This document shows positions 29,450-31,093 of a DNA stretch of 45,924 nt, one piece after another. Position 1 is the first letter of the stretch. Each line of letters begins with the position of its first letter. The notes beneath the pieces are model-generated. The model ran no database searches, had not been told where the DNA came from, and saw only the letters and a list, made by a program, of their open reading frames with translations. The DNA is taken from the NCBI GenBank assembly GCA_029907165.1, contig JARYMK010000004.1, positions 1 to 45,924 of the forward strand, given 5' to 3'. A program made the position numbers and the translations under genes. This stretch comes from Anaerolineae bacterium (lineage in GTDB: Bacteria; Chloroflexota; Anaerolineae; DTLA01).

Positions 29450-29929
29450 CTACGCAAAGTCCTTGAACTTCTGGGTTGTAATCTTCTGCTGAAGTTGGGT
29501 CAGGGCGTAGAACAAGGCCTCGGGACGCGGCGGGCACCCGGGAATGTACACGTCCACCGGGATGATCTTGTCCACGCCCTGGAGGATGGCGTAGTTGTGG
29601 AACATACCGCCGGAGGACGCGCAAGCGCCCATGGCGATGACCCACTTGGGCTCTGGCATGTGGTCATAGAGGCGCTTGACCACGGGGGCCATCTTGTTGG
29701 ACACGCGGCCGGCGACGATCATGAGGTCGGGCTGGCGCGGCGTGGCGCGGAAGACCTCGGCGCCGAACCGCGCGATGTCAAACCGCGACATGCCGGCGGT
29801 CATCATCTCAATGGCGCAGCACGCCAGGCCAAACAGCAGCGGCCACACCGAATACTTGCGGCACCAGTTGACCGCGGACTCCAGCGTCGTGAGGACGACG
29901 CCATCAGGCAGTTTGGTCTCTAGTCCCAT
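29450..29929 (-). CDS. nuoB: NADH-quinone oxidoreductase subunit B
   Basis: A 159-residue protein with the N2 cluster ligands: the tandem cysteines of LACCAIEMM, plus GACASSGG and PGCPPRPE. N2 passes electrons to quinone. The ATG at 29929 overlaps the end of nuoA by 10 nt, and AGGGAG is upstream; the longer open frame ahead of it is non-coding overlap with nuoA. Confidence 0.95.
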
Positions 29930-30279
29930 TCCAACGCTCCCTTCCGCCAGACGTAGATGTAGCCCACAAAGGCAACAAGGAGGAAAAGGAGAATCCCCAG
30001 AAAGCCCGGCCATCCCAGATCCCGAACCCGCGCGGCCCACAGGTACAGGAACACGACTACCATGTCCAACAAAGCGAACAGCATGGCGAACAGGTAGTAC
30101 TTCACCGAGAATGGGCGTTCGCGTGGGCTTTGGAAAGGAATCTTGCCGGATTCATAGGGGAGGAGTTTGACGGGATTCTTGCGTTTGGGGCCTAGAACTG
30201 CGGGAACCCCAAGGGCTAATACGGCGAGAATGCCTGCAACCGCAAGCAGGATGAGGATGGGGACGAAATCGTTTGGCAT
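29920..30279 (-). CDS. nuoA: NADH-quinone oxidoreductase subunit A
   Basis: A 119-residue protein with three membrane helices; the loop PYESGK and the charged third part [15 protein letters not shown] match NuoA. It is the first gene of a 13-gene operon, 83 nt downstream of the predicted transcription start. GGAGG lies 12 nt before the ATG, slightly far. Confidence 0.95.
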
Positions 30280-30397: not shown

Positions 30398-30490
30398 ACC
30401 GACAGCGCACATTCGGCCTGGCTTGCCGCATCACCCGCACAAGGACGGGGTAGGAGACGAGGAACGCCAGCAGCGTTCGGGTCTCATGGC

Positions 30491-30551
30491 GATTGTGCAA
30501 TTTTTGACAATCTCCGGGATCGGGTGTATACTTGTGCCAAGTTGCACAATC
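30491..30551. promoter_or_regulatory. Inverted repeat flanking a plus-strand promoter
   Basis: GATTGTGCAA (30491-30500) and TTGCACAATC (30542-30551) are perfect 10-bp complements, one upstream of the -35 and one at about +3. A third copy of the motif (9/10) is on the nuo promoter. The pattern suggests a common regulator; which one is unknown. Confidence 0.6.
30504..30532 (+). promoter_or_regulatory. Strong promoter for a candidate small RNA
   Basis: TTGACA at 30504-30509, TATACT at 30527-30532, spacer 17 bp. The predicted start is near 30539. No protein gene follows on the plus strand before the terminator at 30609-30650. Confidence 0.75.
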
Positions 30552-30650
30552 ACCGCTGTTGGCTACCCAGATGCTCAGCCAGGGCTTCTGGTTGCCTCCT
30601 TTGCTGATCCCCCTCTCGGTAGGTGCCACCGAGAGGGGGCCCCCTTTTCT
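30539..30650 (+). ncRNA. Candidate small RNA of about 112 nt with an exposed anti-Shine-Dalgarno
   Basis: A consensus promoter and a strong intrinsic terminator on the same strand enclose about 112 nt without a convincing reading frame. The predicted fold has a 7-bp hairpin CAGCCAG-GGCTT-CTGGTTG (30576-30594, with G-U pairs), an unpaired linker CCTCCTTTGCTGAT (30595-30608) and the 12-bp terminator stem. The linker begins with CCTCCTTT, identical to the anti-SD end of 16S rRNA, so the RNA could pair with ribosome-binding sites. It is divergent from the nuo operon and shares an upstream motif with it. A trans-acting role is inferred. The reverse-strand AAAGGAGG has no start codon within reach, so it is not a Shine-Dalgarno there. 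Confidence 0.55.
30609..30650 (+). terminator. Intrinsic terminator of the candidate small RNA
   Basis: A perfect 12-bp stem CCCCCTCTCGGT / ACCGAGAGGGGG with a 7-nt loop, followed by CCCCC and TTTTCT (30645-30650). The T-tract is on the plus strand, so it serves the small RNA. On the minus strand it also lies right after bactofilin, but without a T-tract. Confidence 0.8.
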
Positions 30651-30655
30651 GGAGC

Positions 30656-31093
30656 CTACGACTCCTCGGCGTCCACCACTTCGCCTTCCAGCGCAGGCGG
30701 TTCGGCCTTCGCTTCAGGCGCTTTGAGCAGCGGCGGCTCCTCCGCTCCGGCCATCAGGCTCTGGCCCCGGAAGAACCCGCCTTCTTCCACCAGAAAAGAC
30801 GCGACGGCAATATCGCCCCAGACCTTGCCGGTGGACAGGATTTCCAACCGGCCCGACGCGATAATCTTGCCCTTCACCGCGCCCGAGACCGAAACGTTGC
30901 TGGCCTTGATGTCGGCGAGGACGCGCCCCTGCTCGCCCACGATCACGTTGCCCGCCGCCTGGATGGAGCCTTCGCAGAGGCCGTCAATGCGCAGCCCGCC
31001 GTCGGTCTCCAGTTTCCCAGAGAAGCGTGCATTGGGGCCGATGACCGTTTCTATGCGATCGGAGCCCCGTGGTTTGTCCTTTCCTAGAGCCAA
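30656..31093 (-). CDS. Bactofilin
   Basis: A 145-residue protein with the central right-handed beta-helix of bactofilins (TVIGPNARFSGKLETDGGLRIDG, GNVIVGEQGRVLADI, VSGAVKGKI), short charged N-terminus and an acidic Pro-rich tail. Bactofilins polymerise without nucleotide into membrane-associated filaments that position cell-wall enzymes. It starts with TTG, with GGAGAG 8 nt upstream. It follows the M23 peptidase gene by 108 nt. A bactofilin next to an M23 peptidase is a recurring pair, and a role in cell shape is inferred. Confidence 0.9.
   Translation of the reverse strand: MALGKDKPRGSDRIETVIGPNARFSGKLETDGGLRIDGLCEGSIQAAGNVIVGEQGRVLADIKASNVSVSGAVKGKIIASGRLEILSTGKVWGDIAVASFLVEEGGFFRGQSLMAGAEEPPLLKAPEAKAEPPALEGEVVDAEES

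Follow-up and report, generated by a model that had tools for sequence, protein, structure and literature searches.

RoxS and RsaE are small RNAs of about 110 nt. The RoxS RNA of Bacillus is repressed by Rex, has a Rex site shortly after its transcription start and carries C-rich anti-Shine-Dalgarno (anti-SD) regions (CCCCUUUGUU) (PMC5419742, PMC4409812). In the Alpha-r14 / cuckoo family of rhizobia (NfeR1), three hairpins are present, each with CCUCCUCCC (PMC10746234). The Rex regulons of Streptomyces and Staphylococcus include nuo and ndh genes, which are controlled through the operator TTGTGAAnnnnTTCACAA and its variant TTGTGCACGCGTTCACAA; the published 18-bp operator has the same TTGTG-N8-CACAA frame as the sites described below (PMC5355995, PMC2883068), and the footprinted site TTGTGCACGCGTTCACAA has the same TTGTGC half (PMC5355995). 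Searches of an open paper collection turned up no small-RNA study of Chloroflexota.

We analyzed a 45,924-nt stretch of DNA from an Anaerolineae bacterium (Chloroflexota; contig JARYMK010000004.1), here called the window, in which a first-pass annotation had marked a candidate small RNA. A conserved RNA-like element is found at this locus in the genomes of three species; it comprises a promoter, operators, hairpins and an anti-SD octamer, and a rex gene is present in each genome.

Promoter, borders and neighboring genes

The candidate gene, its promoter and its two neighbors were located as follows.

30504..30509, plus strand: -35 hexamer TTGACA, invariant in three species
30527..30532, plus strand: -10 hexamer TATACT after a spacer of 17, invariant in three species
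30539..30648, plus strand: candidate small RNA of ~110 nt, its start predicted from the promoter and its end from the hairpin; conserved in G000, G001 and G002
29920..30279, minus strand: nuoA, first gene of the divergent complex I operon, assigned to the NCBIfam subunit A family (neighbor, outside the RNA)
30656..31093, minus strand: bactofilin-like gene, convergent with the RNA, with a homologue in 93 of 120 class genomes (neighbor)

The promoter claimed in the first pass, TTGACA-17-TATACT at 30504-30532, proved to be a near-consensus sigma-70 promoter that agrees with the consensus at 11 of 12 positions; in a scan of 3.5 kb, six promoter-like sites were found compared with 0.6 expected in shuffles. 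The borders originally proposed are also those of the conserved unit, as similarity drops off upstream of 30490. The gene order complex I operon, RNA, bactofilin is identical in all three species. The best score of nuoA against the NCBIfam subunit A family was 103.6 bits, which is under that model's curated cut-off. The gene at 30656..31093 had no match in NCBIfam and is here called bactofilin-like.

Some features of the surrounding DNA were observed in addition. The nuo operon has a near-consensus extended promoter of its own, TTGACA-17-TAGAAT (window 30397-30369, minus strand), with no Rex-type site. In the sister genome G002, several hundred extra bases lie between nuoA and the RNA (L002 around 1060-1146); they include a palindromic element, probably a small mobile repeat, whose matches to microRNA models score under the cut-offs. 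The promoter of the RNA (window 30504-30532) shares a spacer likeness, TTGACAATC...(A/T)CGGG(T/C)GTATA, with sites in L008, L009, L012, L015 and L016. This likeness recurs in unrelated genomes of the class and suggests that promoter preferences across the class extend further than the two hexamers.

The statement that about 112 nt here lack a credible gene was borne out, as no reading frame is conserved in the three species. The alternative would be a short protein-coding gene or a leader peptide, and a 21-codon frame that starts with TTG at 30542 and reaches a TGA ahead of the hairpin is indeed open in two species. In G001, however, this TTG has become TTA and the start is lost; the predicted 5' end is too close to the start codon to leave room for a ribosome-binding site (RBS); of three coding changes, two replace an amino acid; and the substitutions show no codon-phase bias. 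In the same third species, the sole ATG is replaced by ACG. A coding function is thus extremely improbable. Among the small open reading frames on either strand none is kept among the three species, and a minus-strand SD sequence (AAAGGAGG), considered as the start signal of a gene behind it, has no usable start codon at normal spacing.

Conservation within the genus

The RNA occurs in each of the three sequenced species of this uncultured genus; beyond the window's own genome, the order has no genomes other than these two. Compared with G001, the more distant genome, only six of 110 positions differ, while the difference is 34.5% and 28.8% at third codon positions of the next two genes and 28% in nearby intergenic DNA. 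At the intergenic rate, a count this low has a probability of about 2e-9. The RNA is therefore under purifying selection, as judged within one genus from three genomes, two of which are identical over the RNA. A 47-nt block (30573-30619) that contains the octamer is free of substitutions.

Conservation in relatives had been named as a test of the proposal. It was found inside the genus, but homologues outside it were not. BLAST against 396 class genomes found the RNA in the same genus only, and the suggested covariance search, run in 298 class genomes, again matched the same genus only. The same result was obtained in a 21-mer search of 84,980 genomes, and viral contigs and plasmids contained no homologues outside the genus. 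Weak matches elsewhere were rejected as homologues, being promoter look-alikes (TTGACAATC..CGGGTGTATA) or chance hits, for example inside an ATP synthase gene. At 27 loci beside bactofilin in other families neither such a promoter nor a similar RNA was present. In agreement with the first impression that no family is recognised, cmscan against Rfam, with E-value limits of 5 for the segment and 1 for the three species, gave no match to RsaE or any other family.

The element has features of a trans-acting small RNA: a promoter of its own, no conserved coding frame and conservation in relatives. Judged from the sequence, it is very probably an independently promoted, conserved RNA gene whose transcript is predicted.

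Rex-type operators in the promoter

The promoter contains two 18-bp palindromes, neither of which the first-pass annotation had noticed.

30493..30510, plus strand: Rex-type operator 1, TTGTGCAATTTTTGACAA, overlapping the -35 hexamer, one mismatch to TTGTG-N8-CACAA
30532..30549, plus strand: Rex-type operator 2, TTGTGCCAAGTTGCACAA, located on the predicted transcription start, no mismatch to TTGTG-N8-CACAA

The arms of operator 1 are unchanged in the three species, with substitutions in the N8 only. Between the window and G001, all six substitutions in 30490-30549 avoid operator arms and promoter hexamers, which has a chance of about 2%. Perfect TTGTG-N8-CACAA sites occur four, two and four times in the three genomes, compared with zero, zero and one for the control. 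All three genomes encode Rex (PF06971, 72 bits; NCBIfam Rex, 274 bits), and the protein matches solved Rex structures with E values down to 1e-51.

The other perfect site common to all three genomes lies directly after the -10 hexamer of an NADH:flavin oxidoreductase gene, near which the window's genome has an alcohol dehydrogenase-like gene. A third perfect site, found in two of the three, lies behind the -10 hexamer of a GAF/histidine kinase gene (L019 303-320, L150 1501-1518). Across 396 class genomes, 38 sites were located 0-5 nt after a -10 hexamer, compared with two for the reversed pattern. Among the genes that follow these strongly enriched sites (L196-L225) are those for NuoE-type 2Fe-2S proteins, NDH-2, COX2 and SCO1, and also many cytochrome P450 genes; the sites often precede genes linked to NADH or respiration and hint that a Rex-like operator serves respiratory genes throughout the class. 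P450 genes are outside the classic Rex regulon.

The pattern TTGTG-N8-CACAA also resembles sites of the CRP/FNR family, and such a regulator might control the RNA instead of Rex: the class-wide sites fit TGTGA-N6-TCACA as well, and several of them precede genes without an obvious NADH link, such as those of the P450s. However, sites on the start or the -35 hexamer occupy repressor positions, C/G is found in the RNA's site at positions that are A/T in CRP-type sites, Rex is encoded in all three genomes, and neighbors of the nuo, ndh and cox type suit Rex. Control by a CRP/FNR-family protein is therefore quite unlikely, and control of the RNA gene by Rex, whose binding is predicted from the operators, is fairly likely.

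Predicted fold and 3' end

Four elements were distinguished in the RNA.

30561..30596, plus strand: 5' hairpin GGC-CCAGA-GCUC / GGGC-UCUGG-GCC, predicted in both sequence variants
30595..30602, plus strand: anti-SD octamer CCUCCUUU, with UCCUUU predicted exposed
30609..30639, plus strand: 12-bp GC-rich hairpin, its closing pair lost in G001
30640..30648, plus strand: tail CCCCCTTTT, that of a weak or atypical intrinsic terminator

The predicted fold is somewhat more stable than that of shuffled sequences (z -2.4). All four substitutions in the 5' domain fall at unpaired positions of a structure that was fitted on the same data. Compensatory base changes in the stems were not found among the three genomes, and the outer stem is not the same in the two sequence variants.

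The intrinsic terminator claimed in the first pass was confirmed as to its 12-bp hairpin, but the tail is atypical, with CCCCC between the stem and TTTT(C/T), and a terminator scan does not list the 3' hairpin. A strong hairpin followed by a T run is rare after genes in this genus.

The 3' end bears on another explanation, in which a convergent transcript would control the bactofilin-M23 genes in cis, through collision or read-through, or the hairpin would be a structure at the 3' end of the bactofilin mRNA, on the other strand. All three species keep the convergent order and the tight spacing, and antisense transcription could continue past so weak a terminator. Yet the RNA stops short of the bactofilin stop codon, the minus-strand hairpin has no U run, and conservation spans the promoter, the operators and the whole body of the RNA, far from the bactofilin end. 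We consider a role in cis very unlikely.

The anti-Shine-Dalgarno octamer and possible targets

The octamer was said to be an exact copy of the 16S anti-SD sequence, and this holds: CCTCCTTT at 30595-30602 is identical to the 16S tail, GGCTGGATCACCTCCTTTCTAG, in the sister genome, which was used because the 16S gene in the window's own genome is partial. The window contains two occurrences of CCTCCTTT, compared with 0.78 expected; therefore about 0.001 would be expected in one strand of 112 nt. The octamer was further said to be unpaired, which is correct for UCCUUU, placed by the fold prediction in an internal loop, but not for the first CC, which pairs with GG in a GGC:GCC helix formed by the last pairs of the 5' hairpin. 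The pairing probability of this CC is near 1 in both sequence variants. According to the same predictions, all eight bases are unpaired together with a chance of 0.1-0.5% at 37 °C; the energy needed to open the octamer is 3-4.5 kcal/mol at that temperature and roughly half as much at 55 °C.

The proposed masking of RBSs was assessed on 739 leaders from 1.13 Mb of one sister genome. SD sites in this genus contain GGAG in 47% and GGAGG in 28% of these leaders. The use of SD sites, the exposed UCCUUU and the invariant octamer make the role plausible, but controls with shuffled flanks bound leaders almost equally well. In the leader interaction check that the first pass had called for, the real linker was slightly better than flank-shuffled linkers, five of 60 of which reached the real mean. 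For the leaders of nuoA, B, E, F and G, the predicted duplexes had energies of -15 to -17 kcal/mol, compared with an all-leader average of -16.1; a direct effect of the RNA on the nuo mRNAs is not supported by these models. Targets by extended complementarity were also sought and rejected: most of the linker's complement recurs in one Moco riboswitch and in a small number of strong, conserved RBSs, but the controls do not support a special fit.

This Moco/tungsten riboswitch (RF01055) occurs in all three genomes (L080 158-268, L082 1492-1602, L102 1416-1526) and precedes a gene whose product begins with MWILRLNM and looks like an aldehyde ferredoxin oxidoreductase. Its 3' part has AAAGGAGGCAAC, complementary to the linker of the small RNA, probably by chance.

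The RNA might instead be a Rex-controlled small RNA in which the octamer is incidental and which acts via its 5' tail, the hairpin loop AGCCA, the terminator loop or protein binding. The predicted pairing of the CC, the weak extended complementarity to leaders and the degree of conservation, which for the octamer is invariant in three species yet no higher than for the remaining RNA, would all fit. An exact copy of the 16S tail is however hardly expected by chance in such a length, and the exposed UCCUUU is the same kind of motif that RoxS-type RNAs use. An incidental octamer is rather unlikely; anti-SD action of the RNA is moderately likely.

Proposed mechanism and comparison with known systems

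By analogy with RoxS of B. subtilis, we infer transcription, Rex binding, RBS pairing and the identity of the targets as follows: the RNA would be off with NAD+ and on with NADH, and would mask the RBSs of selected mRNAs. When NAD+ is dominant, Rex would occupy the two operators, over the -35 hexamer and on the start site, and keep the gene off. When NADH accumulates because oxygen or another acceptor is lacking, Rex would be released and the RNA made. The exposed UCCUUU would then pair first, the rest of the octamer joining once pairing has begun, and the RNA would mask the RBSs of NADH-producing or respiratory mRNAs and so help the redox balance back. We propose only tentatively, our opinion being almost evenly divided, that the RNA is such a Rex-repressed, RBS-masking small RNA that works like RoxS/RsaE without being related to them. 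It is a testable candidate with a predicted inducer, repressor and operator.

With the RoxS/RsaE RNAs of Bacillus subtilis and Staphylococcus aureus the candidate shares its length of ~110 nt and, as judged by sequence, a putative Rex operator at the predicted transcription start. As in RoxS, a C-rich segment is complementary to SD sequences, CCCCUUUGUU in RoxS and CCUCCUUUGCU here (PMC4409812). Stem-loops lie around this segment in both. The Chloroflexota RNA differs in that it has a single, partly paired octamer where the others have several C-rich regions, a pair of operators with one on the -35 hexamer, and adjoining complex I genes; it belongs to another phylum and has no RsaE match in Rfam. 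The sequences give no sign of common descent.

Like the Alpha-r14/cuckoo RNAs, the candidate has an anti-SD motif in regions, within or between hairpins, that are predicted to be unpaired (PMC10746234), but it has a single, partly paired CCUCCUUU and lacks their three hairpins, and no sequence relation was found. Its operators follow the 18-bp frame of the Streptomyces and Staphylococcus Rex regulons, from which they differ in their inner bases (TTGTGC/GCACAA) and in their likely target, here an RNA gene in Chloroflexota.

The RNA would work like RoxS/RsaE and is not a member of their Rfam family; it would therefore be an independent member of the redox-controlled, RBS-masking small RNAs. It is conceivable, if still doubtful, that such an RNA arose independently in Chloroflexota and converged on the Firmicutes RoxS/RsaE circuit, copying the 16S tail to dampen translation of many mRNAs at high NADH. 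If this is true, it would suggest that the NADH sensor Rex has been wired to a small RNA more than once in evolution.
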